In this document: one piece after another, positions 1,395 through 58,586 of the stretch | Layout: each line of letters opens with the position of its first letter | Position numbering within the stretch: the stretch's first letter is position 1 | DNA from: Sphaerolaimus hirsutus | Lineage: Eukaryota; Nematoda; Chromadorea; Monhysterida; Sphaerolaimidae | DNA length: 64,000 nt | Assembly (NCBI GenBank): GCA_964036195.1 | Contig: OZ038456.1 | Coordinates: 19,530,001 to 19,594,000 of the forward strand | Direction of reading: 5' to 3' | Notes under the pieces: generated by a model | Told to the model about the DNA's origin: nothing | Databases searched by the model: none | Seen by the model: only the letters and a program-made list of their open reading frames with translations | Position numbers and translations under genes: made by a program

Positions 1395-2388
1395 TAGTGA
1401 TGGAAAAGCGCCATGGCGCTGGCGCCTGGCGCTAGCGCCAAAGCAAAAAGCGCCATGGCGCTTTTGGCGCTTGGCGCTAAAACGCTCTGGCGCCATTGGC
1501 GCTTGGCGCCGGGATCTGAGAAAGCGCCATGGCGCTTTTGGCGCTTGGCGCCATTTTCTGGTGGCGCTATTGGCGCCTGGCGCCGGCTTTTTGAATGGCG
1601 CCAAAAAAGCGCCAACCATGATTATAAAAATTGTGATAATAAAGTGAAATTCGACAATCCAGTTGATCAATTTTGAGAACAACTTAATAAATATTGAGAA
1701 ATATAAGGGTGTTAGGGGACATTAATAGTACATAATATTTGGGGACAAATGTATTTACCATATTTCCTCAAATTATCCCTCCCTTGAATGAATTAAGTAG
1801 TTTGTATATGTATATAGGTATGCATATATGTCCAAAGATATCCGGTTTGAACACATAAATTACCGGTTTTGGGTATGTAAAGGTCTGTTCTATACTATAA
1901 TTATTCACGAAAATTTCTGATGTGACAATAAAGCCCCACCCCCTCGAATAAGTCCCTCCCTCTAATTAACCCCTTCAAAGTTTGCTGACGAAATAATAAA
2001 CCCCATGGGGGTATTTCCAGGAAATACGGTAGTTATTCGCCTTCGCCCTTATTCATTTTAAGCCTCAACTGATAAACGTTGATAACTAAAAGTTTATTGT
2101 GAGAAAACGGGATTTTATGTCTTCTACTACCATGCGGCACAGTTATGAATTCATCATACTATAAACGAATTGCAGAGAAAAATTTGGCGCTGGCGCTATT
2201 GGCGCTTGGCGCCATCACCCTCTGGCGCCATTGGCGCTTGGCGCTGGGGTTCAGAAAAGCGCCATGGCGCTTTTGGCGCTTGGCGCTATTTTGCTCTGGC
2301 GCCATTGGCGCTTGGCGCTGAGGGTCCGAAAAGCGCCATGGCGCTTTTGGCGCTTGGCGCCAAAAGTCTGGCGCTTTTTCCATCACTA
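1395..2388. mobile_element. GGCGCC-word hAT element (family B), 994 bp
   Basis: The termini are TAGTGATGGAAAAGCGCC and its inverted match GGCGCTTTTTCCATCACTA. The direct repeat GTCATAAC lies at 1387-1394 and again at 2389-2396, an exact 8-bp target duplication as hAT transposases make. Two blocks of GGCGCC/GCGCCATGGCGC words (1405-1615 and 2180-2380) enclose an AT-rich core that carries a TACCGTAT-type MITE (about 1755-2031). The core matches that of the element at 16899-17750. The open frames through the word blocks read Ala-Trp-Arg-Phe-rich peptides and are artefacts. Confidence 0.92.
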
Positions 2389-2499
2389 GTCATAACGCTA
2401 TGAAACATAATACTCCATCAGTGGCTTAAGAATATTTGTGCAACAATGGTATGTGATTCCGGGTCCAGTTGCGGATCACGTTCTGTGTAAGGCAATTAA

Positions 2500-2503
<4 letters not shown>

Positions 2504-2533
<30 letters not shown>
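2504..2533. repeat. (TA)n microsatellite
   Basis: An uninterrupted run of about 15 TA dinucleotides. Confidence 0.9.
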
Positions 2534-2535
<2 letters not shown>

Positions 2536-4942: not shown

Positions 4943-6067
4943 TAACGATGGCAAAAAAAATTTCGAAAATTCGAAAACATTTTCGAATTTTCGAATTTTT
5001 TCATAATTTTCGAATTTTTATTGCACCCCTGGAAAAAACACTGAAAAATCGATTTATTTTTCAATAAATTCGAAAATTCGGAAATTCGAAAATAGTTTTC
5101 GAATTTTTCAATGAATTCAAGGCGACAAATTGCACTCTTAAGTTCAGCGTGCTAAATAAAGTGACAATTGATATGCAGTGGGTCTGAAAAAGCCTGATGT
5201 AATGGAGAAAAAAAACATAAAACATTGAAATGGCGTTCGCGGCGGAGGACCCAATCCGTTGAGGAATGCACCAATGCACCCAATCCCAACCACACATCTG
5301 TTGAGGAATGCACCGAGCCGCCCGAACAAATAGAACCGCGGCGCTCTGCTCTACTTCCGCGGAAACAGACGCTGGTCCATCAAAAAATCCGAGGGACAAA
5401 AGCGATGAACTTCAGTAGCGATGGAAAAAGCGCCAGGACTTTGGCGCCAAGCGCCATGGCGCTTTTTCGAACCCTAGCGTCAAGCACGAATGGTGCCAGT
5501 GGTAAATGGCGCCAAGCGCCAGAAGCGCCATGGCGCTTTTTGCTTTGGTATTAGCGCCAAGCGCCAGCGCCAGGCGTTTTGTTCCTGGCGCCACACAAGA
5601 ATAGCGCCAAGCGCCATGGAGCTTTTCGGAACCCAGCGCCAAGCGCCAATGGCGCCAGAGCAATATAGCGCCAAGTGCCAAAAGCACCATGGCGCTTTTT
5701 GCTTGTCGCTAGCGCCAGGCGCCAGCACCATGGCACTTTTCCATCACTAAACTTCAGTCACACAAGCGTTTTTTTGGAAGGCATTCAGCCCCAGGCAAAA
5801 TGATGCTGCAATTTGGTACAGTGAAATTAAGGTTAAAAGAGTATCCAAACATGAAAACAGTCCGAATACCGTGTTTTAAGCTAAAAATTCAATATTTTCA
5901 AAAAAAGATTCGAAAATTGACAAAAAAGATTCGAAAATTCGAAAATTCGAAAATAAAATTCGAAATTCGAAAATTCATTTGGGAAAAAATTCGAAAATTC
6001 GAAAATTCATTTTGGAAAAAACACTTAAAAATTTAAATACTTTTTTTCGGAGGGTTTGCCATCGTTA
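4943..6067. mobile_element. TTCGAAA-word hAT element (family C), 1125 bp
   Basis: The ends are TAACGATGGCAAAAAAA and an inverted GCCATCGTTA. The 8-bp direct repeat CCGTCGAC flanks both sides (4935-4942 and 6068-6075). Blocks of AAAATTCGAAAATTCG words sit near both ends and in inverse orientation. The core around 5110-5400 matches the core of the 37073-39233 element. A family B element (5416-5749) is nested inside it. Confidence 0.92.
5416..5749. mobile_element. GGCGCC-word hAT element nested in family C, 334 bp
   Basis: It starts TAGCGATGGAAAAAGCGCC and ends TTTTCCATCACTA, with an exact 8-bp target duplication AACTTCAG at 5408-5415 and 5750-5757. Nearly all of it is GGCGCC/AGCGCCATGGCGC words. 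It interrupts the core of the surrounding element and is therefore younger than it. Confidence 0.92.
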
Positions 6068-6934: not shown

Positions 6935-7195
6935 CCATATTTCTTCTAATAGAACAGCGCCATACTATTTTGTTCATCAACGTTTTTACCCGCCATTCTA
7001 TTGGAGGTGCCGTTCTATTGGATGCTACCATTCTATTTTTCTCACCAAAAGTTTTAACACATTTTTCTTTTGAACATTGTATTAATAATGAAACAGGAGC
7101 AACATTTTTATATCAGATCATCAATTCAAACAAAATCAAGTGTGAAAACAACCACTGAATCATACATACATAGTTCTGAACAGCCTTCTAATTCA

Positions 7196-8222
7196 CAAGG
7201 GTTGGTTTTATATAAATTATTTGTATACAAATTGTATAAAAATTGTATTTTATTTTTATTTTATTCTTGTTTCATTTCATTTTATTTTATTTTATTCCCA
7301 AAAGTCATTAATAAAATAAAATGGAACCATTTTACAAAAATTTTACAGAAATTTTACAAAAATTTCACAAAAAATCGGAATCATGCATGAAAGGCCAGAA
7401 AAATGTTATCGTTAGACCAATACATGAAAAATCTGGGACAAACTTTTTCAATCACTTTACAAAAGTTGCATGCAGTAGGTATTGTTAGCTAGCTGCATGT
7501 GTTAACTTACAATTATTGATAACAATGGTTTGCATTTTCAGCAGGAGTGTGCTGGGCACATTTGTAAACTGTCATGCAAGGTGTATATTGTCATGACAAA
7601 TGTAAAGTAAAGTGTCAATCTTCATGCAAAATGTCAAGTATCATATCAAATGTCAAGCAAAGTTGCAACTGTCATAACAAATGGCATGCAAAGTGTAAGT
7701 TGTGTATTCAAATCTTATAATCTTGTATCTAAAGTTTGCTTTGTATCCAAAACTTATATTTCTTTATACTGATCTAAATGTTCACATGAGATTTGCATTC
7801 AAAAAATAACAAGACTTGGATACAAATCACAAGATTTGGATACAAGTTGCTTGACAAATGATTCTTTAATTTATATTTGTCATGACAATTTACACTTTAC
7901 TTAAAATTTGTCATGACAATTGACACTTTGCATGACATTTTACATGACATTTGACACTTTACAAAGCTTGGTGCTGCTCCTAGTTCCACCAATAAACAGG
8001 TAGAAACTCACGCAATGAGATAAAAATTTTACAAAAAATATGAATTCTTATACAATTTTACAAAAATACAAATTTTTATACAATTTTACAAAAATTCTAA
8101 TTTTTATACAATTTTAATTTTTATTTTGAAATTTTCGATTTCATTTTATTTTATTTTTTTCTTAAATTTTCCATTTTATTTTAATTTTAATTTTATATTT
8201 TTCTGAGATTTTGTCAACCCTG
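7196..8222. mobile_element. CAGGGTTGG-ended element with ACAAAAATT words (family E)
   Basis: The ends are CAAGGGTTGGTTTTATA and an inverted TTTTGTCAACCCTG. Subterminal arrays of ATACAAATT / TTTTACAAAAATT words flank a core of TGTCATGACAAATGT words that also recurs inside 22208-25432. The flanking duplication is not clean in this copy. Confidence 0.7.
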
Positions 8223-10388: not shown

Positions 10389-10445
10389 GTGGTGGACGTG
10401 CTGGGCTCACGGCTCCAGTGCCGCAAACCGGAGAGTCTAGACAAG

Positions 10446-11906: not shown

Positions 11907-12536
11907 TAGGGTGTCAAATTTCCGTTTTCCGTTTTCCGTTTCCGTTTTCCGCAGGCAAATTTTTTCCGTTTTCCGTTCCGTTTTCCGGCTGCTGAAATTT
12001 TTTTTCCGTTTTCCGTTCCGTTTTCCGGCTACTAAAATTTCCGTTTCCGTTTTTCCGGCTCATTTTCCGTTTTCCGGCCGAGTTTTTAGTTTTTCCGCCT
12101 TTTTTCTGTTTTCTGGCTCAATTTCCAGTTTTTCTGCCTTTTTTTCCATTTCCGCCTCAATTTTCTGTTTTTCCGCCTCATTTTACCGTTTTCTCGCTCA
12201 ACTTTCTGTTTTCTGTTACAGCCAAACTGGTAAACATTCATGCAGATTGACAATTATGTCAATTTTTTCTGTTTCCAGAAAAATTTACGCAAATTTCTCC
12301 CACTTGCAGCAAAATTTCAGCAAATTTTTGTCATTTCTGTGCAAATTTCATTTTTCCGTTTCCGTTTTTCCGGCCCCTTTTTCCGTTTTCCGGCCGCTGA
12401 AATTTTTTTTCCGTTTCCGTTTCCGTTTTCCGCCTAGTGCAAATTTTTTTCCGTTTTCCGTTCCGTTTTCCGGCCGCTGAAATTATTTTTCCGTTTCCGT
12501 TTCCGTTTTCCGTAAAAAAATTTTTTTGACACCCTA
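11907..12536. mobile_element. TTTCCG-word hAT element (family F) inside pol, 630 bp
   Basis: The ends are TAGGGTGTCAAA and TTGACACCCTA. The 8-bp sequence CCCATGTT occurs directly before (11899-11906) and after (12537-12544), an exact hAT-type target duplication. The body is iterated TTTTCCGTTTTCCG/TTTTCCGGC words and codes for nothing. Its position inside the integrase-linker frame shows that it inserted after the LTR element. Confidence 0.93.
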
Positions 12537-16898: not shown

Positions 16899-17750
16899 TA
16901 GTGATTGAAAAGCGCCATGGCGCTGGCGCCTGGCGCTAGCGCCAAAACAAAAAGCGCCATGGCGCTTTTGGCGCTTGGCGCTAAAACGCTCTGGCGCCAT
17001 TGGCGATTGGCGCTGTCATCTGAGAAAGCGCCATGGCGCTTTTGGCGCTTGGCGCCATTTTCTGGTGGCGCTATTGGCGCCTGGCGCCGGCATTTTTAAA
17101 TGCGCCAAAAAAGCGCCAACCATGATTATAAAGTTCTTATGATTCAGTGAAAATGGACAAGCCAGTTGATAAATTTTGCGATTAACTGAATAAATATTGA
17201 TAAATATAAGGGGGACATTTATGTTAATAAAATATTGATTAGGTAATATTTGGGGCAAATGAATATACCGTATTTCCTTGGTATACCACCAGGGGTTTAT
17301 TTTTCCGAGTGCAAATTTTGATGGGGGTATTTCGAGCGAGGGGTTTATTATTTCGCCAGGAATTTTCGTAAAGTATCATGTAAAGAATAAGTATTTACAT
17401 ACTCATAACTGGTAATAAACATGACTAAATGGGATATAATATTTAGGACCTATCATCGTACGGCTGTTTGGCTGAAAAATTGGTGTATCCCTTGGGATTT
17501 TTATGATGTAGTGGTTGATTGAACTTTAATGGCAAAAGTTAAATTGACTACTGCGACATCAGCGGTATGTCACAATTACGAATTGATTATTCTACAAAAG
17601 AATTGCAGAAGAAAAGTTTTTGGCGCTGGCGCTATTGGCGCTTGGCGCCATCACTCTCTGGCGCCATTGGCGCTTGGCGCTGGGGGTCGGAAAAGCGCCA
17701 TGGCGCTTTTGGCGCTTGGCGCCAAAAGTCTGGCGCTTTTTCCATCACTA
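16899..17750. mobile_element. GGCGCC-word hAT element (family B), 852 bp
   Basis: The ends are TAGTGATTGAAAAGCGCC and GGCGCTTTTTCCATCACTA. The target duplication CCGCCGAG is exact (16891-16898 and 17751-17758). Two word blocks (16910-17115 and 17617-17740) enclose a core that matches that of 1395-2388, including an inserted TACCGTATTTCC-type fragment at 17265-17360. Confidence 0.92.
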
Positions 17751-19250: not shown

Positions 19251-19755
19251 CAGAGTTGTTAAATGTACTGAACTTTTTTCAAAGTATACGCAAACGTAAA
19301 GTATTGATTTTTACTCACCCCTTGAGTACAGAAAACGTAAAGTAATTTTTGTTACTTTTATTTATGAGTAAACGTACTTTTCCCCGCAGAAAACGTAAAC
19401 ATGAGTACTTCTGAGAAATGTCGCCAAATTTTTCAAGAAATGTCGCTCAAAATCGGTCATTTAAATAACTTTTTGCGTATTTTACACAGTTTTTGACTAT
19501 ATTTTTGGTTCTATACGCATTTTCGACTAGTTTTGAGTATTTTTATCTCATTTTCTTTTTTTTTCCCTACTAGGTATGTCTTTAAAAACCTATAAAAAAG
19601 ATGATCTAAAATATGTTTTCTGTACTCGAGTACTTTCAAAAAGTGTATGTAAAAGCGAGTACCAGAACTTTTTTTGGAGGAAACGTATACGTATTTACTC
19701 TGTACTTGAGTATACGTATTTATCGAGTAAAAGTAAATACGTTTTAACAACTATG
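19251..19755. mobile_element. AAACGTA-word hAT element (family G), 505 bp
   Basis: The ends are CAGAGTTGTTAAA and TTTTAACAACTATG. The 8-bp target duplication CCTCAGTG is exact (19243-19250 and 19756-19763). The body consists of GTAAACGTA/GAGTACTT words in both orientations. Confidence 0.88.
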
Positions 19756-21323: not shown

Positions 21324-21869
21324 CAATGTTGTTAAAACGTAATTACATTTACTCTATAAATACAGATACTCGAGTACTGCGTAAATACGTTTACATCCCC
21401 CACCAAAAAAAAATACCGGTAGTAACTTACTCGCGTACTTTTTGAAAGGCTTTTTATCGTATTTCAAACGTATTTCAGAAAACGTATTTCAAACAGGCTT
21501 TTTATCGACTTTTTCGAGGCATAAAAACAAAAGACAAGACAAGTTCAAAATAGGGTCAAAATATCCAAAATAGCAGAAAAATAGACAAACAGACATTAAA
21601 TAGTGAATTTGATGGTGAAAAAGTTCAAAAATTGATGATTTTGAGCAAAATTGCGGCATAATTTCTCAAAAATACCCACTTTTACGTTTTCTGGGGACGA
21701 AAGTAATTTACTCGCGTTTACTCATGAATAAATGTAAAATATAAATACTTAATATCAACAAGTTTACGTTAAATACAAAAAAGTTTACGTAAAATATAAA
21801 AACGTTTACGTAAAATATAAATAAGTTTACGTTCACTTTTGGAAAAGGTCAGTACTTTTAACAACTCTG
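21324..21869. mobile_element. AAACGTA-word hAT element (family G), 546 bp
   Basis: The ends are CAATGTTGTTAAAACG and TTTTAACAACTCTG. The flanks CAATGTAC and CATCGTAC agree at 6 of 8 positions, so the duplication is worn. It shares GTAAAATATAAA/GTTTACG words with 19251-19755. Confidence 0.7.
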
Positions 21870-22427
21870 CATCGTACTTGACTGGGATGGGATGGGCTAG
21901 GGAGTCCCACCGTTTCACATTGATTTTCCCAAATTCAAAAGTTGGAACCCTCAAATCGCGCCAGCGTCATGGCGCCATTCCATCACTAGTTGGCGCCCCA
22001 GCAAATATGGCGCCATTGCGACGGCGACGACAGCACCTTTGTCACCAGTCTAAATGGTGCAAACGCCAAAAAATGGCGCAGAGTCTAGAAATGCATACTG
22101 ATCACTATACTGAGATACAAACCGGACATGGGATACACTTCCATTCGAAGTGTGTTCATTTATATTGTTAATTTTATCGATTCTCTCACTTTCAACATTG
22201 TTGTCACCAGGGTTGGTTTTATAAAAACTATTTGTATACAAATTGTATAAAAATTGTATTTTATTTTAATTTTATTCTTGTTTCTGTTTATTTTATTTTA
22301 TTCCCAAAAGTCGTTAATGAAATAAAATGATACCTTTTTACAAAAAATTTACAAAAATTTTACAAAAAATCGGAATCATGGATGCAGGCAGAGCCAGCAA
22401 AATGTTATCATTAGACCTATACATGAC

Positions 22428-24602: not shown

Positions 24603-25470
24603 TACATGACAAACCTGTAACAAATTTTCTCATTACTTTACAAAAGTTGCATGCAGTAGGCATTGTTAGCTAGCTGCAAGTGTAAAGTTACAATTAATGT
24701 TAACAATTGCTGCATTTTTAGTAGGACTACTGGAGAGTGCTGGGCGCATTTGAAAAATGTCATGCAAAGTGTCAATTGTCATGACAAATGTAAAGTAAAG
24801 TGTCAATTGTCATGCAAAATGTCAAGTGCCATGTCAAATTTCAACCAAACTGTCAATTGTCATGACAAATGTCATGTAAAGGTGTGTATCCAAATACTAC
24901 GTTTTTGTAACCAAAGCATGTTTTGTATCCAAATCTTACATTTTTGTATCCAAATCTTATGTTTTGTATCCAAATGTTCACATAAAATTTGGATTCAAAA
25001 ACAACAAGATTTGGATACAAAACATAAGATTTGGATACATAACATAAGATTTGGAACAATTTGCTTGACAATTGACACTACTTTATATTTGTCACAACAA
25101 TTGACACTTCACTTTACATTTGTCATGACAATTGACACTTTACATGACATTTTACATGACATTTGACAATTATAAAGCTTGGGACTGCCCCCAGTTCTGT
25201 GAATAAACAGGTAAAAACTGAAAACAAAGGTATAAATTTTTTGCAAAAATATGAATTTTTATAGAATTTTACAAAAATATGAAATTTTATACAATTTTAC
25301 AAAAAAAAATAATACAAAAATTCGAATTTTTATACAATTTTTATTTTTATTTTGAAATTTTCCCTTTCATTTTATGTTATTTTATTCTTAAAATGTCCAT
25401 TTTATTTTTTTCCTGAGATTTTGCCAACCCTGGTTGTCACATCAACACCATGTGAATGGCACTTAGTGAA

Positions 25471-35812: not shown

Positions 35813-35843
35813 TAGTGATGGAAAAGCGCTTTTTTTATCACTA
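35813..35843. mobile_element. 31-bp minimal hAT element
   Basis: The element is only a TAGTGATGGAAAAGCGC left end joined to a TTTTTTATCACTA right end. It is flanked by TTCAGCAT (35805-35812) and TTGAGCAT (35844-35851), which agree at 7 of 8. It is a family B or AAGCGC-word element reduced to its termini. Confidence 0.8.
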
Positions 35844-39300: not shown

Positions 39301-42300
39301 TCACTAGTGATGTAAAGGCACCGGGGCACCGGTGCCCCGGTGCTGGGCACCGAAGAGCACCAGCACCGGTGCTGGTGCGGTGCCATTGCAATCTTCAGGG
39401 GTGCCATGCCGGTGCCGGTGCCATTTTTTTCAGAATAGCACCGGTGCCGGTGCGGTGCGGTGCCATTTTTTTGCTGGTGCCAAAGGTGCTAGCACCAGGG
39501 CAAAGTAAAAGGCACCGGGAAAGGCACCGGAGAATGCTTCATGTGCTGTGCAATTTTGTCCATAGTATGTGCATATTCATATTTCAAAAAACAGCGATAT
39601 ATTTACCCAACCGTTTTTGCCTATTTTGTAAACCTCCCATCAAATAAATATACCTACTGTGAAATCCATTATACCCAATACGTGATCTGATGAGCGAATC
39701 TAAAATTTTGTTGAATTTTAAATCATTTTTATATTTTTTATTTATCTTACTTTTTTGTTCAAAATTTGTTGTCAGTTTATGACAGAGATAGTTCCATTCT
39801 CTGTACAGCAACGACTCCGATCAGTAGACAATAGTGGCTATTGACATTGTAATGAATAAAATATTTTATCTTTCATTTGTAATCGTTGTAATTGCTTCAT
39901 AAAAACGATTGCCACATCATTCTGATCATTTTAAGTGCTCAACCATCAAAATCGGTAGAAAATTCATGGAAATATGCACTTCCAAATGTGAGACCACTGA
40001 GAAACTGCCCGATATTTACTTCAGAAATTCCAGCCCCGGTGCGGTGCCTTTCGGTGCTAGCACCGGCAACCCGCCGGTGTCCTTTGGTGCCGGTGCCATT
40101 TTTTCCAAAAGGCACCGGTGCCGGTGCGGTGCGGTGCCATTTTCTGGCCGGTGCCCCAGGGTGCCAGGTGCCCTTTTCATGCGTTGGCAAAGGTGCCGGT
40201 GCGGTGCGGTGCCATTTTTCCCGGTGCCTTTAACATCACTAGTGATCACTAAATATGAGTGACAAGTAAGTTGCAAAAAAAATTTATCGCTTCAATTCAT
40301 GCAATACAAGGTCTTGGACTTTGAGCATGCAAGATTTACCGTGGCAGCCAGTATGGACCATGAACGCACTTTTATATTTACTTGTCACTTAACATGACAT
40401 TCCCAACTTATATAACCACTTGTCACCCATCGCAATTGTCACCAGATCGCCATATGCGCACTTGTCTACATCGTGCCAATAAGCGTGGATGCTGGCTTGG
40501 GGCAGTTCGCAGGCAAAAGTGCTATGGGCGTGTACTGCAGACTCGTGCCGCTGTTTACAGGTAGGTTTTTGGGCAGTTGTGTAACAAACATTTATGTGTG
40601 ACGCTGGTTTAATTTGGAGTGGGGTCGAATTGACTGGTGTTCATTGGCGGCGTAAGTGCTTTGGGCGCTTGTGAATGTCACGCGGAATTTTTGGTGTTGA
40701 GCAGAAATTTCACTGTCGCACTGTGACATTTTTAAGTGTCTATTGTACAAACGATAGTGAAAGTTCAAAATCGCTAAAATTTGCTCCATTTGGCCAATTT
40801 TCGCCTTTATTATCACTATTTTCATCATCTTTATATTTACATGGTGATATACTTTTTTAGACAATTTTATTAATATTTATCGTGATTTTGAAATGTTTTG
40901 CTGGCTGCCAACTTCACATTAAAAGATAAGTGGGCTACGATAAAAAAGTTATCACAAGGTGAAGTTTTGGCTAATGTGAATGTAACAATAAGCGCAAATT
41001 GGGACCTTGCGCCGCCTATGCTGATGATTGCTTAATGCCCTCGTGTAATGGTCGATAAATCCAAAATTTCGTAAATTGAGTTGAGTGCGGAAGTGCCATG
41101 ACAGGGTTAGACGTTACACCCTCCCATTTTTTGGTCAGAACCTATTAAAATAGCGAAATTCTTCTGATTTCACGTGCCCCTTTTTTAACTGTCAGATTTT
41201 ATACAGTTTGTGACAAATCCGCAAAAAAATTACTAGTGTGCACGGCTGCAATGGCTTTATGCTGCGATTACAGCTCGGACATAAACTTCCAGCATAAAAT
41301 TTCATCGCAAAATTGATTACATGAAAGTGGATGATGATACAGGTCTGCAATTTTTCATGGACAATATGTTTATCAATACCTTCATTGTGACCAAGGGTCA
41401 TCGTCCACGGCCACTTCTATTTGATTGTGAAAATTTTACGCCAGCTGAAGAAAAATCAATTGATAAATCAGCTACGCCAGGTGATTGCATGCAAGGACAT
41501 AGCGTAGAATTGATTTTTCTTCCGCTGGCGTTAAATTTCAACGTAAAATCGAATTTTTTATTATTTTCATAATCAAATAGACGAGACCATGGACGATGAC
41601 CCTTGGTCGCAATGAAGGTATTGATCGGGTGGGCGCGCCAGCTTGATCCCTCGTAGGGTGTCAACTTTCCGTTTTCCGCTTTCCGCAGGCAAATTTTTTT
41701 CCGTTTCCATTTCCGTTTTCCGGCTGCTAAATTTTTTTTCTGTTTCCGTTTTTCCGGCTCATTTTCCGTTTTCCGGCTAAAATTTCAGTTTTTCTGCCTG
41801 TTTTCTGGCTCAATTGTCTGTTTTTCCAACTTTTTTTTCCATTTTCTGACTCAATTCTCTGTTTTCTGTTTCAGCCAAACTGGTAAACATAAACAAACTA
41901 GCCAAAAAAATTTCCGTTTCCGTTTTCCGCCAAAACGTTGTTGTTGACACCCTACGAGGGAGGGCGCAAGCGACCCACCCATAATATGGTCAGACACACC
42001 AAAATGCGGAAATCGCAAAATTTTAATCACAAACACTTCAGAACGCGACAAGCTACCGCAAACACGATTATACCATTGAATAGCCCGTGTCGAAAAGTGC
42101 CCCCATGCAAATTTTCAGATCGAATGGTTGAGTTGGGAGGAAGTTATTACACATTTTCTTTTCTAGGCAGTGTTGTTGTTGTTGTTCTTCTTCATCTTGT
42201 TCTCCAGACAATCTTTTAACTGCAATAACTTTCCAGTAACACAACCAATCTTCATGAGTGATGGCTCATATGAAAGAGCATACAATGCCATTGTTTATTT

Positions 42301-45300: not shown

Positions 45301-48300
45301 CAAAAAAATAACCCCCCCTCAAATAACTCCTCCCCCTTGATAAACTCCCCCCTCAAAAAATTTTGACAAAAAAAATAACTGCCTGGGGGACTTATTCGAG
45401 GATATACGGTATTAGTATTTGGCTTCTTCTTGACTATAGATTGTATTTCTCAGTGCCAAATTTGGCATTTGCTTGATTTGCAATAACTTATAAATTTTTT
45501 GGGCCTGTGGCCCCCGAAAAGAAGTACATCAAAAAAAAAATGGCTAAAGCCAACAAAAAGTGGACGCTGCAGCCAAACATCTGTATGCTTTTGACTGTGT
45601 CAAAATGCTGCAAACATTAAAGATACAAAAAGCTCACGCTGCCATGCAAAAGTTTGGTGAAACTGTTTCTTGTGATGCAGTTTGCTGTGTTGATAGCCTA
45701 TATTATTAGGATTTGTATACATTTCCCTTGATATACATCTTTTGATAGCTCAATCAGAAAATGGCATAGTATGATATATCACTTTTGTGCATTCAAAAGC
45801 ATACACATGTTTGGCTGCAGCGTCCACTTTTTGTTGGCTTTAGCCATTTTTTAAAACATATTGTCCCTAAAAAATTGCAGATCTGTATCATCATCCACTT
45901 TCATGTAATCAATTGTGCGATGTAATTTTATGCTGGAATTTTAAGTCCGAGCTGTAATCGTGCCATAAATACCTAGTCCACATATATTTACCGCATTTCA
46001 GGTGTCGGCTGGGCAAAGTTGGTCGCGCTATTTCTGCTTCTATTGAGTTGGCAAGACGACCTGATTGTAGACATTCACAAAATGGGCCAGAAATTGTGGA
46101 GCAGAGATTACGCGTCGTGTCAAAATTACGACAGAGTCAAAGTCACCAAGGGTAGTAAACTGATAAGTGTTTTAGGGTTTATTTGAGGGAAATAGGTATA
46201 TTATTTCGCCAGATTCATACCAGGGGTTATTTCGAGGAAATACGGTATACACAGTAAAAAAGTGTGCTAAGTGGTTGTATGAAGCATCATGAATAAAAGT
46301 GTTTTCATTTCATGCTGACACTTCCCGATGCTTCATGCAGCTGAAAAGTTTTTCGTAGCACCAACTTCAAGACTTTTGTGAAACACAGAATCTTTATAAC
46401 CAAAAACTGTCTGACAAATTCTCGCAGACAATTCCTGGTGCTTCAGTCCACTGGACACCCTTCTAAATGGGGACATGTGTCTGATTATATTCAACAAAAC
46501 GTGCTACATGAACAGAGAGGACACTATGCAAATTCCAAATAGTGCCACGGATGTTCTAAATCTTACTGGCTACCCAGTCAAAGTGTCTTCATTTATTGAG
46601 GCGTATCTAGAGGGAGATTTGAATGTGATATCGCCTGTTATCCTGTGAGTATGATTTATTTATTTATTCCACTTTACTGCACTTCATTTTGACACTAGGG
46701 TTTCAAAAAGTCAGTGGCCGGAAAAAAAGGAATGGCCAGAAATCGAAGAACGGGAAAATGAAAACAGGAATTTTCCCGGAACCCCCCCCCCCCCCGGAAC
46801 ACCCCCCGAATTTTCATTTCAGAACTGCAATTCAAATGAAACCAAATATCAGAGGAAATAAAGCGTCTAAATCATTGTTTTGAATATTTTGAACTTTTCA
46901 CCAACCATCACTTTTTTATTTATTTTTGATTTGGCACACTTCCAACGTAAATTTGACCTGTCATTCTATTTGAGGATACCATTCTACTTTTTTGTTGATA
47001 AGAACGATAGCCTAATCCACCATTCTATTGGAGGTGCCCTTCGCTTTGGGGTACATATGCCATTCTATTAGAATAATTAAATATTGTAGTTCAGGTTATG
47101 ATAATTAGGTCTCTCGACATTTAGATATTTCAGTCCTGCGATGACTACCATTTAGAAGCCGCCATTAGAAAAGTTTTTGATTCCCACTACCCCTACCCAC
47201 CCATCATAACTAAAAAAATTCGATTTCAGTGCTGATAAACATGACGATTACACTCACACCATGATAATGTTCACTGTAATGTGGCTTGTTTTGTTGGTGC
47301 TGGTATTGACTATTAACATCCGTCAACTGGGGCAGGTGAGCAAAAGTATTTGGGTATTTATACATACTTTTACGTTTACGTTTTCCAAAAGTACCATTAC
47401 GCTTTGTTACGTTTTCATGGCGCAATTATTGGTGTACCAGAGAAAACATCTGTTTTTCTAATTTTTAATGGTGGAAGTAGGGTTGGAAAAAAACGTTTTA
47501 TTCTACTCGATGTTTAAAAAAAACAACGTTTTTTAATAAAAAACGTTTTTTTTCAATAAAAAACGTTATTTTTAAAAGCTCCCAGATATGACCTTGTTTC
47601 AACATAAATATATAGATATATCAGACAGTGGCAATACTCTGTGATGTTATATATGTCCATATAATGTCTGTGGAGCCATGGGATAGCATTATAAGTGGTG
47701 ATTTGTGTCAAAAATATCCATTTTTCGTTGATATATCGTTGGTATATCGCCTTATAATTGAATGTTTGTGACTTCAGGTAGAGTTTGGCACGGAAAAGTG
47801 ATGAAACAAGGTTATAAAAGGAGGTGGTTACTTTCGGAGTGAAGTTACACACTGTGGAGGTACATGGAAGCACATTACCTCAATATTATATAAATACTAC
47901 AGCAACATATGACAGCTTATTAACCCATGGTAGCACATAGAAATGGATACTTTGATACTAAAAATGCCACAAAACCATTGCAAACAACCACCAATGTCAA
48001 TTTGTGTGTGAAATTGCGCGCTTGCGCACAAAAATTTTGCAAAATACCTAGTGCTTAGTACTAAAAATTTCGGCCGATGTTTTTTTACACATTCCGGGAA
48101 AAAAATATTTCGGACGTCATGTTTTTTAAACAAAAAACGTTTTTTTTATATAAAAAAAACGTTTAAAAAAAACATCGGCCAACCCTAGGTGGAAGCATTT
48201 AAAAAAAGCATTTTACGTTACCGTTGTTTACGTTTACCCGGGTATTTTGAAAATACTTTTACATATTAGTATTCGTACGTAAAAGTTAGAAAAGGTATTT

Positions 48301-54300: not shown

Positions 54301-56962
54301 AAACAGTACTCATATTTGCATTTAAATTAAAAAATTCAGAGACACTTGACATCTGAAAACAATAATTGGGAAAACATTGAAATTTTTACACATTTTGAAT
54401 TCATATTTTTTTGTGCACATGATACACTGGTCTGGATAAACAGGTGTACTCCTATAAAAATAAGTTTCAGGGTGACAGGTTCAGCTAGTAATATTTCAGC
54501 ATGAATTTTTGAAAAAACAACATTTTTTGTCAGAATTCATTTTGGGACACCATGCATGCACAGGCGCGCAACAGCCCGCCATGAGGCACAGAAGCCATGA
54601 GGCTGTCTCGTGGGTGTGTGGGGGGGGGGGTTCAGCCCGCTTGGCATCTACACCCACACAGCATGGAGACTGCATGGCATCTATGGGACGATAGATGCCA
54701 CGCGGGTCTAGATGCCAAGCAGGCAGAAATCCATGCCACGCGGGTCCAGATGCCATGCAGGTTTAGATGCCGAGCGGTGCAGACTCTGTCAAACTGGGTT
54801 GCCATTTTGCAAGGCATTTTACATGACTTTTGACACTTTGCATGACATTTGGTATTTTACATGGCCTGGGACTGGCACCTGATTTGATATGTAACTCTAC
54901 AATAAACACAGCTGCTGCTGGTACACTCGAACGCTGGCCTCTCTACAGGTTGCCAGTTTGTGACACATTGTCATTTGTCATGCCACTGATCAAGTGCATG
55001 GCAAAGTGCCAGAAATCAATCAATTGAAGTGAATAAAATTTGTCGAGTATGTACCTGGGGATTCTTCAAAACCCAGTAAAGTGTAACGTCAAGTGTCAAA
55101 TGTCATGCAAATGTCAAATAAAAAAAAGATTTTTTATTACTGAACTTTGCACCACAATTGACACTTTATTTAACATTTCTCATGACAAATGACACTTTGG
55201 ATAACATTTTTCATTCATGTGACGCACTTAACTTTACACTTCACAGGGTATGGGACTGTCAGCTGATGACATTTATTTACTAGCTTTCACACACACAAAG
55301 GCCACTGTGTTTTTTTCATGAATAGAAATGTGATTTATGCAGGTAAATTTTAAACGCCATGGCATGTCGTGTGTGCAACGATGGAAAAAACACAGAAATT
55401 GAACACAGAAACTCATTGAGTTTCTGTGTTTTTGTTTTACACAGAAACACGGAAACTCACAAAGTTTGAAAAACTCAAAACTCAAATGAGTTTTTTTTTG
55501 GAGAACACAGAAACACAGAAACACGGAAACACAGAAAAGTTTTTTGAGTTTTTGAGTTTTTTTCAGCGAAGTGGTTGAACACATTTTCAGAATGCACATG
55601 AATTCAGTTAAACTAAACAAGATAAGATATTCATGTATAGCATGTAAATATGTACATAATGTATTCATATTTTATGATGGAACAAAAAATAAATTAAAGA
55701 TGGCATGCACATCTCCCGGTGGACATGTTTAAATATAGTTGTAGTTCAAATCAATTCTGTAGTCTTCCATACAGTGCACATCCATTGAAGAATTTTGGAG
55801 TACTGCGTAAATTGTCGTTTGTGAGCATTTTGTTGATGCTGGTGTTGCGATGTGGGTGGATGTCCTCATTGAGGACATTTTTATGGACTTTTTCAACACT
55901 TGAATGAATGTTATGTGGGGTTAAAACATGTGCAAAACTAATATTTTATAAGAAAACCACTGTTTCCACATCAAAATGCTGTACATCAGAATTTTTGGGG
56001 GAAAACTCAAGTTTTTTAGACAAAAACTCGAGTTTTTTAGAAAAAAACTCAAAAAAACTCTAGTTTTAACAAAAAACACAGAAATAAAAACAGAGTTACT
56101 CAAGTTTTTTTTCGATAAGTGTTTTTTTTTGGAGAACTTACCCATCGTTGCGTGTGTGTCCTTTCTACACTTTGCTTTTTGGTGACCTAAAAAAGAGAAG
56201 TATTTGCATTATCTGAATGTTACTGTCTGATAAGAATATTGAGATATACCGTATTTCCTCGAATTACCCCCGGGGGATTATTTTTTCAGAGTGAAAATTT
56301 TGAGGGAAAAACGTGAATAATGCAACAATAACCACCATTTATAATTTTTTACAGCCTTTTATAAGGATGTAGATGGTATAAACGATGTTCTAACGTAACA
56401 CAGTAAGTGTTTTGAACGTCTGTTATGCAATTCCCGGACCACAAATTCATAGTCCCATTTTGAGGGGGGTATTTCGAGGAAATACGGTAAACTTTTTCAT
56501 CGATCTGGATGTCTGCGCAAATGGATGACAATGTGTCACATTCATAGAAAAGAAAATTGCTATCAAAGCATTCAATCTGCTGTGGGTGATAATAATTGCG
56601 ATTTCAATTATCTACCAGATAGTCAGGTGCCGCAGAAATGGAAGGGTATGTTTCAATTGACAATAGTTCATTTTTATTCAGCACTGAAATTAATTGGATC
56701 ATTTCCAATAAGTAATTTCTGAAGCTTTTCAATGTGTTTCTCCCATCAGGATTGGAGAACTCTGCTGAAACCGCACAGTTCTTGGAAGCCAGCCAAGCAC
56801 TTGGAAGCGCGCATCAAACAACACGCGACCATAGGCTTCAAATTGGGCAGTGGGGCGATTTTGAGGCACGGCAGCTCTGCTCGTTCTGACCCAGGGTGCG
56901 AAATTAATGTGTTTTTACAATGGCCAGCCAGATTACATTCTCGAGTACAAAAGTGGATGTAA
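36198..56962 (+). CDS. Divergent SLC6 (sodium:neurotransmitter symporter) family protein, 16 exons
   Basis: Joining 16 exons in phase gives 724 residues, in the SLC6 range. The family is shown by: GGSAFLL then PISVDAGLGQF (helix 2, usual GGGAFLIPY...LEVxLGQ); VPLFTGVGWAKLVALFLLLL (helix 3, usual APMFKGVGYA); DNSWC and a later Cys in the large outer loop with two glycosylation sequons (NKT, NLT); FSAYNNFHNN after helix 6 (usual ASYNKFHNN); VLYLSAALVVYIYG (helix 10); and DWRTLLKPHSSWKPA in the tail (usual LxxPSxxWGPA). SLC6 proteins co-transport amines, amino acids or osmolytes with sodium across the plasma membrane. Odd points: the helix-1 GLGNxWRFP motif is replaced by YGLMRTKF, and the helix-8 GLDSQF by VLDALPQSW. 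Both carry sodium ligands in the family, so sodium coupling may be lost. Introns of up to 5.4 kb hold nested transposons. Confidence 0.82.
36746..36893 (+). CDS. SLC6-like gene, exon 2 (helix 1 and start of helix 2)
   Basis: The acceptor is C-tract CAG and the donor CTGCAG|GTGGGG, phase 0. It reads RWLEGWDFCAALLCYQMQ, then GYTYGLMRTKF where SLC6 helix 1 normally has its sodium-site motif, then AAAGGSAFLLQ. Confidence 0.8.
36967..37064. mobile_element. Short GGCGCC-word hAT element in SLC6-like intron 2
   Basis: It starts TGGTGATGGAAAA and ends CCATTCCATCACTA. The flanks GTGAGAAC and GTGATCAC agree at 6 of 8. The next element begins 8 bp further on. Confidence 0.7.
37073..39233. mobile_element. 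TTCGAAA-word hAT element (family C), 2161 bp
   Basis: TAACGATGGCAAAAAAAG and GGTTTGCCATCGTTA are its ends, with GTGATCAC on both sides (37065-37072 and 39234-39241). Its core shares GGTGGGTCTGA and GCGGCGGA..GAGGACCC with 4943-6067. It contains the family G element 37780-38561 and AATAGAAGG-type MITEs (37570-37625, 38330-38412, 38620-38695). Confidence 0.9.
37780..38561. mobile_element. AAACGTA-word hAT element (family G), nested, 782 bp
   Basis: CAGAGTTGCAAAAACG and GACCAACTCTG form the ends. The target duplication CAATGTTG is exact (37772-37779 and 38562-38569). TACGTTTACGTTT words sit at both ends. Confidence 0.9.
39305..40241. mobile_element. GGCACC-word hAT element, 937 bp
   Basis: The ends are TAGTGATGTAAAGGCACC and GGTGCCTTTAACATCACTA, and GTGATCAC is duplicated exactly (39297-39304 and 40242-40249). 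Word blocks of GCACCGGTGCCGGTGCGGTGCC surround an unrelated AT-rich core. Flanks of about 60 bp beyond the duplication are also similar (39236-39296 against 40244-40300). Confidence 0.9.
40446..40560 (+). CDS. SLC6-like gene, exon 3 (helix 2 and inner loop)
   Basis: The acceptor is TCACCAG and the donor TTTACAG|GTAGGT, phase 1. It reads IAICALVYIVPISVDAGLGQ, then VYCRLVPLFTG, matching the LGQ...APMFKG stretch of the family. Confidence 0.85.
41654..41954. mobile_element. TTTCCG-word hAT element (family F), 301 bp
   Basis: The ends are TAGGGTGTCAAC and GTTGACACCCTA, with TTTTCCGTTTCC words inside. The flanks are not direct repeats: ATCCCTCG at the left and CGAGGGAG at the right are inverted copies (7 of 8), and the similarity in inverse orientation extends further out. 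The element thus sits at the centre of a palindrome. Confidence 0.8.
42736..42807 (+). tRNA. tRNA-Arg (anticodon TCT)
   Basis: 72 bases fold as a full cloverleaf: 7-bp acceptor GCCTCTG/CTGAGGC with one T-T mismatch at pair 6, a D arm from GTCTAGTGGTTAGG, a 5-bp anticodon stem CTCGT/ACGAG with loop GTTCTAT, a 4-base variable loop, and a perfect T arm GCGGG-TTCGATT-CCCGC. The A and B boxes (TAGTCTAGTGG, GGTTCGATTCC) are good, and a T-run (TTTCTGG) follows. It lies in an intron on the same strand as the host gene. It is the first of two tandem copies of a 307-bp unit, so it could also be the head of a tRNA-derived SINE. Confidence 0.75.
43043..43114 (+). pseudogene. Decayed tRNA-Arg (TCT) copy
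   Basis: It differs from 42736-42807 at three places: a changed base 9-10 (TGGTC for TAGTC), a broken anticodon stem (CTCTT against ACGAG), and a broken T stem with a damaged B box (ATTACC for ATTCCC). It is probably not functional. Confidence 0.75.
43506..45411. mobile_element. TACCGTATATCC-ended element carrying a giant foldback, 1.9 kb
   Basis: It opens TACCGTATATCCTCAATTAAG and closes GGGACTTATTCGAGGATATACGGTA, with AACTCCCCC words near both ends. Between them about 43700-44450 and 44490-45210 are inverted repeats of each other, meeting near 44470. Matching frames on opposite strands (43966-44328 minus, 44629-44880 plus) come from this symmetry. Confidence 0.8.
45536..45860. repeat. Foldback with CAACAAAAAGTGGACGCTGC arms
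   Basis: AAAATGGCTAAAGCCAACAA and the following GTGGACGCTGCAGCCAAAC are inverted at 45800-45856. The internal 210 bp are AT-rich. Confidence 0.75.
46002..46151 (+). CDS. SLC6-like gene, exon 4 (helix 3 and first part of the outer loop)
   Basis: The acceptor is CATTTCAG and the donor CAAGG|GTAGTA, phase 1. It reads GVGWAKLVALFLLLLSWQ, then DIHKMGQKLWSRDYASCQ. Confidence 0.88.
46428..46644 (+). CDS. SLC6-like gene, exon 5 (large outer loop)
   Basis: The acceptor is CTCGCAG and the donor ATCCT|GTGAGT, phase 2. It begins DNSWCFSPLDTLLNGDMC, the family's Trp plus paired-cysteine region, and has sequons FNKTC and LNLTG, then SFIEAYLEGDLNVISP before helix 4. Confidence 0.88.
47230..47335 (+). CDS. 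SLC6-like gene, exon 6 (helix 4)
   Basis: The acceptor is GATTTCAG and the donor GGGGCAG|GTGAGC, phase 0. It reads HTMIMFTVMWLVLLVLVLTI then NIRQLGQ. Confidence 0.88.
47478..48187. mobile_element. AAAACG-word hAT element (family H) in SLC6-like intron 6, 710 bp
   Basis: TAGGGTTGGAAAAAAACG and GGCCAACCCTA are its ends, with an exact target duplication GGTGGAAG (47470-47477 and 48188-48195). AAAAAACGTTTTTT words lie at both ends. The core is related to that at 30360-30500. Confidence 0.9.
48371..48514 (+). CDS. SLC6-like gene, exon 7 (helix 5)
   Basis: The acceptor is CGTCGCAG. The donor is uncertain: AGT|GTTGGT (48514) or GGG|GTGGAT (48523), both phase 0. It reads LSLVLSMLPFCFVAFGILPV, then the outer loop EIFDFHPETLISAS. 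Confidence 0.75.
48996..49123 (+). CDS. SLC6-like gene, exon 8 (helix 6)
   Basis: The acceptor is TGTTTCAG and the donor TTGAT|GTGAGT, phase 2. GWFEAFVMARMIVGPNVG is followed by FSAYNNFHNN, the most diagnostic SLC6 motif in this gene. Confidence 0.9.
49574..49913. mobile_element. TACCGTATT-ended C-tract MITE in SLC6-like intron 8
   Basis: 340 bp from TACCGTATTACCTCGAATT to TTTTTCGAGGTAATACGGTA, with the same middle as 523-809. Confidence 0.8.
50065..50202 (+). CDS. SLC6-like gene, exon 9 (helix 7)
   Basis: The acceptor is AATTGCAG and the donor GACAGA|GTGAGT, phase 2. It reads NLMSMIIFSCIGTTMLARR, then GENMRVRKLLTE. Confidence 0.88.
50856..50982 (+). CDS. SLC6-like gene, exon 10
   Basis: The acceptor is CCATTCAG and the donor TCAACT|GTAGTT, phase 0. 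It encodes the acidic loop DDYVGTTALLNEALSGLQL and FEMLQLTLQFST before helix 8. Confidence 0.7.
51056..51112 (+). CDS. SLC6-like gene, exon 11 (57 bp)
   Basis: The acceptor is TTTTTAAG and the donor CAATTG|GTGTCC, phase 0. It reads GLIFIITDKANLAWPTAQL. The donor was chosen because it joins directly onto the helix-8 exon in frame. Later donors would need another phase. Confidence 0.6.
52066..52209 (+). CDS. SLC6-like gene, exon 12 (helices 8 and 9)
   Basis: The acceptor is CCACTCAG and the donor TACAGG|GTCTGT, phase 0. LAVLVCFVAGVLDALPQSW stands where SLC6 has the FFLMLxTLGLDSQF helix. ATVICLYSLSWPLAIYR is the next helix. Confidence 0.85.
52505..52610 (+). CDS. SLC6-like gene, exon 13 (helix 10)
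   Basis: The acceptor is TATCGCAG and the donor ATATACG|GTGGGT, phase 1. It reads DIIMSVITNIQGYSVLYLSA and then LVVYIYG, which fits the family helix 10 ending in VYG. Confidence 0.85.
52958..53124 (+). CDS. SLC6-like gene, exon 14 (helix 11)
   Basis: The acceptor is CTAAACAG and the donor GAAGTG|GTGAGT, phase 0. GMDNILRDAKLMQPIP matches the family stretch after helix 10 (usually DDIxxMxG). The helix is NALFSINFFAVALFNLGVV. Confidence 0.83.
53210..54790. mobile_element. GGCATCTA-word foldback element in SLC6-like intron 14
   Basis: Blocks of GATGCCAAGCGGG/TTGGCATCTA words (53250-53420 and 54640-54780) lie outside a pair of long inverted repeats (about 53425-53760 and 54100-54435, sharing ACCATGCATG, CCTCAGTGTTAAGGGGCAAC and others). 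No clean target duplication was found. Confidence 0.7.
55376..56150. mobile_element. ACACAG/ACTCAAG-word hAT element (family D), 775 bp
   Basis: CAACGATGGAAAAAACACAG and TTACCCATCGTTG are the ends. CGTGTGTG is duplicated exactly (55368-55375 and 56151-56158). The words match those of 22428-24602. Confidence 0.9.
56250..56489. mobile_element. TACCGTATTTCC-ended MITE in SLC6-like intron 14
   Basis: It runs from TACCGTATTTCCTCGAATTACC to GGTATTTCGAGGAAATACGGTA. It is nearly the same as 18162-18410, including AGGATGTAGATGGTATAAAC and AATTCATAGT. Confidence 0.8.
56553..56645 (+). CDS. SLC6-like gene, exon 15 (helix 12)
   Basis: The donor is GGAAGG|GTATGT, phase 0. It encodes KAFNLLWVIIIAISIIYQ then VRCRRNGR. 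The acceptor is the weakest in the gene: AAAAG at 56551-56552 keeps phase 0, but it lacks a pyrimidine tract, so the true start may differ or a small exon may be missing. Confidence 0.6.
56750..56962 (+). CDS. SLC6-like gene, exon 16 (C-terminal tail) and stop
   Basis: The acceptor is TCCCATCAG. DWRTLLKPHSSWKPAKHLE is the SLC6 tail motif. The stop TAA is at 56960-56962. No AATAAA follows within 100 bp. Confidence 0.83.
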   Translation, partial: DWRTLLKPHSSWKPAKHLEARIKQHATIGFKLGSGAILRHGSSARSDPGCEINVFLQWPARLHSRVQKWM

Positions 56963-57209
56963 ACTAGGCCCTACATGCCTGATAAATTTGACTGTTTATA
57001 TAAAATGAGGTTTTGTGCAAGTTACCTATATGGATTTCGATGCGCATAATATGAAAAACATTCAATTGCAATGTTTTCCATGACATGGCTATATCATTTT
57101 CACTCTAGCAATACTTAAAAAGCTTTATGGCAATCTGCCAAACTTTTTCTTTTTGTCTAGTGCATTGGGTACTCACATTATTTGTGATTTTGTATCGTTG
57201 GATTTAGGT

Positions 57210-57600
57210 CTATATCTTCACTGCCGTATAGCTTCCTGCTGTGAAAGTGCCGTATAACCTCGTATCAGACCTCTTCCTTGAATAACTCCCTCCCTTGAAT
57301 AACTCCCCCTGTTTACCAAATGAGAAAAAATAACTTCCCCCTTGAATAACTCCAGACATTTGAATAACTCCCTCCTCTGTGATAGGTGGAAAAGATGTTT
57401 GGGTTGCTAAATGAAGTTCGACTGACCCAATAAAGCTACGCCTGGGCTGCAAATGCAGTGTAGTGTGTGAAACCAGAAATACAAAGGAATATCACCTATG
57501 GCAGCGACAAGAGATAGATGATTTAATTCTGAAGAAAAATACCCCCCTTTGAATAACTCCTCACCCTTAAAAAAGTCCACCTCAAGTCTGATGAAAACAT
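57210..57600. repeat. CTTGAATAACTCCC repeat fragments
   Basis: Several TTGAATAACTCCC words and a degenerate CCGTATAACCTCGTATCAG end, related to the TACCGTATATCC family. Confidence 0.55.
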
Positions 57601-57609
57601 TCCCTTGGG

Positions 57610-58586
57610 TAGTGATGTAAAAGCGCCATGGCGCTGGCGCCTGGCGCTAGTGCCAAAACAAAAAGCGCCATGGCGCTTTTAGCGCTTGGCGCCTTTTTGC
57701 TGTGGCGCCATTGGCGCTTGGCGCTGTGCTACGGAAAAGCGCCATGGCGCTTTTGGCGCTTGGCGCTATGATGCCGTGGCGCCATTGGCGCTTGGCGCTG
57801 GCATTTTAAAAAGCGCCAAAAAAGCGCCAAGGAGTTCAAAAAATAGATAATTATTTTATGTTAAAAGACCTTGTGTGCAAAATTTTCACAAGTAAATGTG
57901 TTACTGCACATGTATTCCAGCAAGAACAAACCCTCCACTTGCTTATTTTGCAAGGATATCCAAAAAAAATTCCCCAAATAATGGGCCTAATGGTTCCCAT
58001 CCCAATTCAAATCTTGCTCACGAGCCGACGAGTGACGATCAAATGCATAGTATTGCATTGTGTTGAAAAAAAAGTTTTGTTGTTGTTGAATAAAAAGGTA
58101 AATACAATGGTAAAATGTCTGAATGCTTCAAACTGTAGAGGACCCAAAGTAAATAGATGTCCAAAAGATGTCTGGAAGAATCACATGGTGCACTCCCAAG
58201 CACCTCCAGACAGAAAACCCTGTTTCGACCCTTTCGAACAGACAGGGGATTATTTCGGGGCGGGTGCCAGGGTCTCATCAGTGCTCAGCACCCTTAGCCT
58301 ACATAACCTACTTAACCTACTACAAAACCTAACCCACAGGACCTAACCAATACCTGCATTAGCATGGCTGCTTTTTGGGCAGCAAAAAATTTTGGCGCTG
58401 GCGCTATTGGCGCTTGGCGCCAACACCCTCTGGCGCCATTGGCGCTTGGCGCCGTGTTCTAGAAAAGCGCCATGGCGCTTTTAGCGCTTGGCGCTATTTT
58501 GCTGTGGCGCCATTGGCGCTTGGCGCTCGCATGCCAAAAGCGCCATGGCGCTTGGCGCCAAAAGTCTGGCGCTTTTTACATCACTA
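57610..58586. mobile_element. GGCGCC-word hAT element (family B), 977 bp
   Basis: TAGTGATGTAAAAGCGCC and GGCGCTTTTTACATCACTA form the ends. CCCTTGGG is duplicated exactly (57602-57609 and 58587-58594). Two word blocks (57620-57835 and 58385-58580) enclose a 540-bp core different from those at 1395 and 16899. The core contains a stretch (about 57985-58050) related to the MITE at 35477-35642. Confidence 0.93.

Follow-up and report, generated by a model that had tools for sequence, protein, structure and literature searches.

The window analysed here, a 64-kb stretch of the genome of the nematode Sphaerolaimus hirsutus (contig OZ038456.1, positions 19,530,001 to 19,594,000), is animal DNA rich in repeats, among them a retroelement, a UDP-glucuronosyltransferase gene and many short elements resembling hAT transposons. 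The ends of each hAT-like element are filled with copies of a short word that differs from family to family, and the locus raises the question of what these words are and whether an element can exchange one word for another. The window was read throughout, and 290 kb of further DNA of the same genome was added to the analysis (200 kb at 5 Mb of contig 1, a 70-kb block and two 10-kb pieces; 354 kb altogether). The words are probably arrayed docking sites for hAT transposases in non-autonomous elements, kept by selection and sometimes rewritten in place. Most of the phenomenon is explained by known hAT biology; the uncommon piece is the replacement of an end-array vocabulary within one traceable lineage.

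Elements, termini and word arrays

Elements were sought under a loose rule (YA...TR inverted ends with 8-bp direct flanks) and a strict rule (an end match of at least 9/10 with exact flanks). The loose rule gave 41 matches in the window, five Markov shuffles giving 8-20, and these included 15 hAT-like elements with exact 8-bp target-site duplications (TSDs; starts 1395, 4943, 5416, 11907, 16899, 19251, 22208, 22428, 23160, 37073, 37780, 39305, 47478, 55376 and 57610); the other matches were mostly imperfect. Under the strict rule, 8-bp flanks yielded 17 matches (100 shuffles: mean 0.02, maximum 2), namely 14 hAT-like elements, two matches in other inverted repeats and one unexplained (10101-12256). 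With 6-bp flanks the strict rule gave 10 matches (30 shuffles: mean 0.8, maximum 4), and 6-bp duplications were rejected as a signal, being mostly palindromic hexamers or low-complexity words. A preliminary description of this DNA had counted at least 12 elements with 8-bp duplications, which these scans bore out.

That description had also proposed a common terminus, YARNGWTG. Ends of this type do occur in many families and pair with 8-bp TSDs: when ends were paired on this motif only, an exact 8-bp duplication was present in 12/32 pairs, with 0/32 at 4-7 or 9-12 bp, and six decoys with shifted flanks gave 0 exact duplications. The motif by itself, however, showed no enrichment, with 93 ends counted where about 79 were expected and the highest of 30 shuffles giving 100, and it resembles the terminus of Ac. 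It is thus the pairing of ends with exact 8-bp flanks, and not motif frequency, that places the elements well above chance. The elements of the window were as follows.

E1, 1395..2388, plus strand: hAT-type element with GGCGCC words; ends TAGTGATGGAAAA, TSD GTCATAAC
E2, 4943..6067, plus strand: TTCGAA-word element, host of nested E3; ends TAACGATGGCAAA, TSD CCGTCGAC
E3, 5416..5749, minus strand: GGCGCC-word element nested in E2, core nearly nil; TSD AACTTCAG
E4, 7195..8222, plus strand: ACAAAAATT-word element; left end degenerate, without clear TSD
E5, 11907..12536, plus strand: AACGGAAA (TTTCCG) element within the retroelement; ends TAGGGTGTCAAA, TSD CCCATGTT
E6, 16899..17750, plus strand: GGCGCC-word element; TSD CCGCCGAG
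E7, 19251..19755, plus strand: AAACGTA-word element; ends CAGAGTTG/CATAGTTG, TSD CCTCAGTG
E8, 21324..21869, plus strand: AAACGTA-word element; TSD 6/8
E9, 22208..25432, plus strand: ACAAAAATT-word element, host of nested E10 and E11; ends CAGGGTTGG, TSD GTTGTCAC
E10, 22428..24602, plus strand: AACTCAAG/ACACGG-word element nested in E9; ends CAACGATGG, TSD TACATGAC
E11, 23160..24183, plus strand: GGCGCC-word element nested in E10; TSD GTAGGCAT
E12, 25932..26284, plus strand: CGGTGC/GGCACC element, almost wholly words; imperfect TSD GTAGCGGG/GCGGCGGG (6/8)
29710..29835, plus strand: GATCCCG-word element, absent from the preliminary description; left end degenerate (CGGGGTTCA), TSD 7/8
E13, 29896..30607, plus strand: AGCGCT-word element; right end TAGGGATGG, left end decayed, no TSD; core homologous to E21, words replaced
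E15, 35813..35843, plus strand: 31-bp remnant consisting of two ends; TSD 7/8
E16, 36967..37064, plus strand: short GGCGCC element; TSD GTGAGAAC/GTGATCAC (6/8)
E17, 37073..39233, plus strand: TTCGAA-word element with few words, host of nested E18; TSD GTGATCAC
E18, 37780..38561, plus strand: AAACGTA-word element nested in E17; TSD CAATGTTG
E19, 39305..40241, plus strand: CGGTGC/GGTGCC element; TSD GTGATCAC
E20, 41654..41954, plus strand: AACGGAAA (TTTCCG) element; without 8-bp TSD
E21, 47478..48187, minus strand: AACGTT-word element; ends TAGGGTTGG, TSD GGTGGAAG; core homologous to E13
E22, 55376..56150, minus strand: AACTCAAG/ACACAG-word element; TSD CGTGTGTG
E23, 57610..58586, plus strand: GGCGCC-word element; TSD CCCTTGGG; ends like those of E1 and E6

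No clear 8-bp duplication was found for E4, E13, E14 or E20. E17 and E19 may not be independent, since they have the TSD GTGATCAC in common and similar host DNA follows both. A BLAST comparison of the E23 core with the cores of E1 and E6 gave no match.

Elements of the hAT superfamily have short inverted termini of YARNG type. The elements described here combine such termini with 8-bp TSDs, subterminal repeats near both ends and an nTnnnnAn target preference. The preference was drawn from the 38 exact TSDs pooled from the window and the 200-kb block, in which T occupied position 2 in 19 and A position 7 in 24 (p=4e-7); in the window TSDs alone it was weak (T2 5/15, A7 10/15). A census of the window and 220 kb gave 41 elements (16 in the window, 25 in the 200-kb block and 0 in the two 10-kb pieces), one of which was later dropped. 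The rule used for the 200-kb block resembled that for the window, with G demanded at end position 5 and one TSD mismatch tolerated where the ends matched well, and eight shuffles under it gave 0-2 elements. The block holds most of the window families and several more, with termini TAGGGTTCAAACGG (GATCCCG words), TAGGGCTCGAA (ACTCGA), TAGGGTTGGGA (CGGTTC), CAGGGGTCTC (AGATAG) and CAGGGACGTAGCC (GCGCCA).

In each element one word, or a few that overlap, predominates at the ends; E1, for example, contains 47 copies of GCGCCA against 0.75 expected. Vocabularies were scored in 52 elements against a list compiled by hand from the same sequences; the window scan contributed 15 of these elements, the 200-kb block 25 and the 70-kb block 8, and the other 4 were imperfect elements of the window. 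A single vocabulary led in 49/52, four of these being weak (leading count 2-4 against 0-2), and the remaining three scored 0-1 for any. Mixing within an element was rare, the clearest second scores being 18:7 and 18:6, where the search patterns overlap. Thirteen vocabularies were counted in the 354 kb, and 9/13 have, by our own count, a private 9-bp terminus. The terminus TAGTGATGG/T carries either GGCGCC or CGGTGC, and TAGGGTTGG either AACGTT or CGGTTC; GCGCCA words, for their part, were found with two unrelated termini. By our own count a CpG is present in the word in 11/14 terminus-vocabulary classes, compared with 18% of all 6-mers in the same DNA. ACACAG, previously listed as a family word, is a variant of one word, since in alignments it trades places with ACACGG from site to site. 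A derivation of the GGTGCC elements from GGCGCC elements by CpG decay was discarded, BLAST giving no alignment between the two.

The words occupy roughly the outer 100-250 bp of each end (about 100 bp in E13 and E21). In the GGCGCC elements they take up about half of the 200 bp nearest each terminus and none of the core. The earlier picture of elements built from one iterated word thus holds in that each family has its own dominant word, and fails in that most elements also have a non-word core. Nor are most strand-asymmetric words set in two inverted blocks, as had been described. In E5 all copies of AACGGAAA lie on one strand across both ends (0:35), and a 14-bp phrase of the GGCGCC family gave strand counts of 8:0, 5:0 and 9:0 in E1, E6 and E23, with a further count of 5:0. 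By our own tally, wherever each end offered three or more scored asymmetric words the two ends agree in majority direction (13/13 elements); palindromes give no direction to score, and in the AAACGTA elements of the window one end carries too few words for scoring. Asymmetric words therefore mostly keep one direction at both ends, so that the termini are inverted and most arrays are not, the exception being the AACTCAA family considered below.

Constraint on the words was tested in the GGCGCC family alone, whose arrays repeat a 74-bp unit containing seven words. In ten such units, outside the stretch used to find the unit, words were 91.6% conserved against 74.4% for spacers (p=0.003). Between elements, substitutions numbered 9/126 in words and 20/95 in spacers for E6 against E23 (p=0.004), and 8/119 and 23/102 for E1 against E23 (p=0.0009); the close pair E1/E6 gave 3/120 and 7/101, which is not significant (p=0.19). 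This conservation favours constraint on the words, or their homogenisation. Slippage, invoked in the preliminary description as a possible cause of word turnover, is unlikely on its own because the words are better conserved than the spacers.

Word replacement in the E13/E21 lineage

E13, with AGCGCT words, aligns along its length with E21, with AACGTT words. Five more copies of this lineage were found in 270 kb of contiguous stretches, and the seven fall into two groups: a GCGC group of E13 and the copy L025:8263-8925, and an ACGT group of E21 and four others, one of which lies about 60 bp from the GCGC copy in L025. A truncated relative with one AACGTT was also found, and short fragments lacking ends were excluded. 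The shared core of about 500 bp is 70-77% identical between groups, 83% within the GCGC group and 84-96% within the ACGT group, and a core tree supports the GCGC pair (95/92) and the five ACGT copies (99/94).

The end blocks separate the two groups by their words. In the two GCGC copies the end blocks contain 13 GCGC and 1 ACGT, while those of the five ACGT copies contain 28 ACGT and 0 GCGC; for E13 and E21 alone the counts were 8:1 against 0:7 (p=0.0014). Since GCGC occurs in the cores of 6/7 copies, the difference between the blocks is not base-composition drift. Between groups the end blocks have diverged beyond the cores (53-68% identity against 70-77%), and GGCC directly outside the first left-end word is kept in 6/7 copies. 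The termini of the groups differ by one base: TAGGGATGG stands at 3/4 ends of the GCGC group, with GGACCTTGG at the decayed left end of E13, and TAGGGTTGG stands at 7/10 ends of the ACGT group, where two of the other ends read TAGGGTTGA and one reads TAGGGTGGG. Both ends have thus had their words replaced (AACGTT versus AGCGCT), together with one terminal base, in elements whose outer flank and core are still homologous. The earlier proposal that subterminal words turn over is upheld for this one traceable lineage, and by single termini that carry more than one vocabulary; a second lineage with such a change was not seen. No report of vocabulary replacement in hAT ends was found in the open-access literature, as judged mostly from titles and the starts of abstracts.

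Proposed docking sites and alternative explanations

We propose that the elements are non-autonomous members of many hAT families, similar to miniature inverted-repeat transposable elements (MITEs). The short terminus would be the cutting site of the transposase, and the word arrays would provide multiple docking sites for its N-terminal DNA-binding region (a BED finger and a Hermes-type domain), as in Ac and Hermes. Selection for mobility may hold the words while the spacers drift, which would account for the conservation seen in the GGCGCC family. Words of one direction make the two ends non-mirror images, and this may answer to the left/right asymmetry that Hermes requires. The vocabularies would differ with the specificity of the binding region, which is known to differ among hAT lineages elsewhere. 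The replacement in the E13/E21 lineage would likely be an adaptation to a transposase with shifted specificity. Docking sites suggest themselves from what is established for Ac and Hermes and from the specificities measured for hAT binding regions; that the words are bound, which protein binds them and what drove the replacement are matters that we infer. The most specific form of the proposal, in which the finger changes specificity and the whole site array of the dependent elements is rewritten in place, site by site, along with one terminal base, is put forward tentatively, and we lean slightly against it.

Iterated subterminal words are a known hAT trait. In the available text of PMC3260210, Ac has the 11-bp terminus C/TAGGGATGAAA and AAACGG hexamers that are bound cooperatively, with about 200 bp of each end needed; as here, there are 8-bp duplications, subterminal regions of about 200 bp with many hexamer copies, and short non-autonomous relatives with unrelated filler. 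C/TAGGGATGAAA is close to TAGGGATGGAAA here, and AAACGG is contained in the AACGGAAA vocabulary (23 copies in E5). The present elements are nevertheless not of the Ac/Ds family proper, for TAGGGATGGAAA, the nearest terminus, goes with AGCGCT words, and the vocabulary containing AAACGG goes with TAGGGTGTCAAA ends; unlike Ac/Ds, they show 13 vocabularies in 354 kb and one lineage with the word changed at both ends. Hermes, as described in the available part of PMC10368747, has AAGT subterminal repeats bound by the BED domain and an nTnnnnAn target preference. Its short words run through both ends and are read as having one direction, as here (STR2-7, the subterminal repeats of the left end, antisense and STR1-5 of the right end sense, left STR1 excepted), and symmetrised ends had little or no activity (PMC10368747). 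Hermes differs in having one vocabulary and a known transposase, whereas none was found here in the scanned reading frames.

The hAT binding domains (BED and Hermes DNA-binding regions) prefer CGG, CGC/GCGC or AT-rich motifs, and for four hAT proteins the preferred motif agrees with the subterminal regions of the protein's own element, according to the accessible portion of PMC8097297. Several vocabularies here fall in the same motif classes as those of the hAT-derived CGG-binding proteins and hAT-19 type transposases of that study (PMC8097297, same portion), which as far as that portion goes concerns proteins across species, whereas the present data concern the DNA side, a single genome with many vocabularies and with one replacement inside a lineage. 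Long-ended transposons such as Galileo likewise have multiple transposase binding sites in internally repetitive ends; Galileo, however, belongs to the P-element superfamily, with a THAP domain and long inverted ends, in place of the short termini and unmirrored arrays found here (PMC3688188, text available in part). Coral MITEs were set aside as a parallel, being, in the part of the source available, piggyBac-like and different.

Several observations weigh against the docking-site proposal. Word replacement is confined to one lineage of seven copies. The agreement in end distance between old and new word sites is weak (p=0.03), the sites having been picked by hand. The remaining BLAST matches across vocabularies were discounted as probably due to nested insertions, to decayed copies or to repeats common to the interiors, and were not each verified. 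Word direction is mixed in the AACTCAA family (E10 and E22). In Ac/Ds, according to the available text of PMC3260210, some Ds1 show that the hexamers are not strictly required, and seven Ds-l elements that failed to excise when tested show that they do not suffice, so that words alone are no proof of function. The same array design also occurs in a non-hAT group with CCGTATT ends, so its cause may be partly general to the host and not to hAT elements. Finally, no word can be tied to a protein, because the scanned open reading frames (ORFs) held no hAT transposase, which in autonomous members of the superfamily has a BED finger and a hAT C-terminal dimerisation domain; introns or unscanned ORFs could hide one. 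In the window, where the preliminary description had likewise seen none, no hAT or BED domain was found at E≤0.01 in 239 ORFs (149 of at least 80 aa and, inside elements, 90 of 50-79 aa). Nor did a hAT transposase turn up in 142/276 ORFs of at least 100 aa from the 200 kb and one retroelement ORF, or in 103/108 ORFs of at least 90 aa from the 70 kb.

The best-surviving alternative holds that the hAT families are numerous and distinct, every one having a transposase, a terminus and words of its own, that the vocabularies are old and near-fixed, and that the GCGC/ACGT pair is two families sharing an old core. The private termini agree with it, as does the finding that at least 75 homologous pairs share their words while one lineage changes them. 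On the other hand, TAGTGATGG and TAGGGTTGG each carry different vocabularies, and words were replaced between homologous elements with outer and inner flanks conserved. We give this explanation close to an even chance; it includes the docking-site part of our own proposal, and the two likelihoods overlap.

For the replacement step, the main alternative is end exchange with another GCGC family, the GCGC subfamily having taken its ends from another GCGC-type hAT (such as the TAGTGATGGAAAAGCGCC group) by recombination or gap repair. Ends of TAGTGATGGAAAAGCGC type are present in the window, and the greater divergence of the blocks than of the cores between the groups would fit. The outermost bases, however, remain of the lineage type (left TAGGG-TGGCC, right TAGGG-TGGA), so that exchange needs two separate events with breakpoints inside each end, and we regard it as unlikely.

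The preliminary description favoured one machinery that reads only the shared terminus and moves all families, leaving the words free to turn over. Speaking for it are the YARNGWTG-like ends across many families and the single target preference that the pooled 8-bp duplications show. Such an end, however, resembles that of Ac, words are conserved relative to spacers, vocabularies are rarely mixed in one element, termini track vocabularies (9/13 with a private terminus) and different hAT binding domains already have different known words; we regard this explanation as very improbable. Least probable of all is a neutral origin, in which slippage or unequal exchange expanded the arrays like minisatellites and transposition makes no use of them. 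The 74-bp higher-order tandem units of the GGCGCC family and the same word direction at both ends would suit it. Against it, words carry about three times fewer substitutions than spacers (significant in 2/3 comparisons), each end has an array that does not continue into the core, and within one lineage the block sites of two groups differ all together.

Other features of the DNA and wider meaning

The non-hAT group with CCGTATT ends is flanked by TA (before 16/18 starts and after 14/16 ends); its members lie at the following positions.

CCGTATT-end group: 525-807, 1758-2029, 4013-4433, 6493-6932, 9081-9516, 25473-25873, 49576-49911 and 56249-56487

Its ends are similar, and it has at least two vocabularies, with arrays of TCGAATTA-CCCCC or AATAGAA words, which suggests that word arrays may form readily in this host whatever the superfamily. 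E1 (1620-2183) and E6 (17115-17620) each have an apparent CCGTATT-type element near element position 364-370, with the interior inverted between them; it is either one insertion that was flipped or two insertions. Arrays of TGTCATGACA/TGACACTTTACA words at 7560-7970, 24750-25170, 33420-33600, 54790-55230 and 59330-59590 (the last by eye) include some that sit inside otherwise different elements. At L008:6525-8435, an AACGTT element is split in two by a TTTCCG hAT element, whose word blocks enclose reverse transcriptase sequence from a retroelement.

The gypsy-like retroelement (10232-15240), into which E5 is inserted, has an integrase ORF and, by eye, near-identical repeats of about 150 bp at both ends; a search with a retroelement protein gave two matches, the better being 30% identical to an octopus record. 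A large imperfect inverted repeat, also seen by eye, surrounds two tRNA-like genes at 41230-46000 (42736-42807 and 43043-43114, the second called with anticodon cta). The UDP-glucuronosyltransferase (UGT) gene, with introns, lies on the minus strand at 60836-63000; its joined exon pieces gave no match at E≤0.001, nor did a word-array ORF at the same threshold. Pfam matches among the scanned ORFs (annexin, 7tm_1, nidogen, EGF and UGT) indicate an animal, and word-pattern scans of IMG/VR gave one chance phage match and two empty results.

For students of regulatory and of transposon evolution it is an open problem how a DNA-binding protein with dozens of sites changes its recognition word and stays active. 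The two states of such a change are present here in one genome, at one place about 60 bp apart, with their common ancestry readable from the core and more vocabularies at hand for comparison. For annotation, the finding is a warning that hAT families with unrelated-looking ends may be sister families. If the vocabularies were tied to transposases, the specificity of BED fingers could be decoded from sequence. Should the finger-shift explanation prove true, the 13 vocabularies, most of them with a CpG, would form a natural series for the BED-finger recognition code, and a change of a many-site code could be observed without loss of function.

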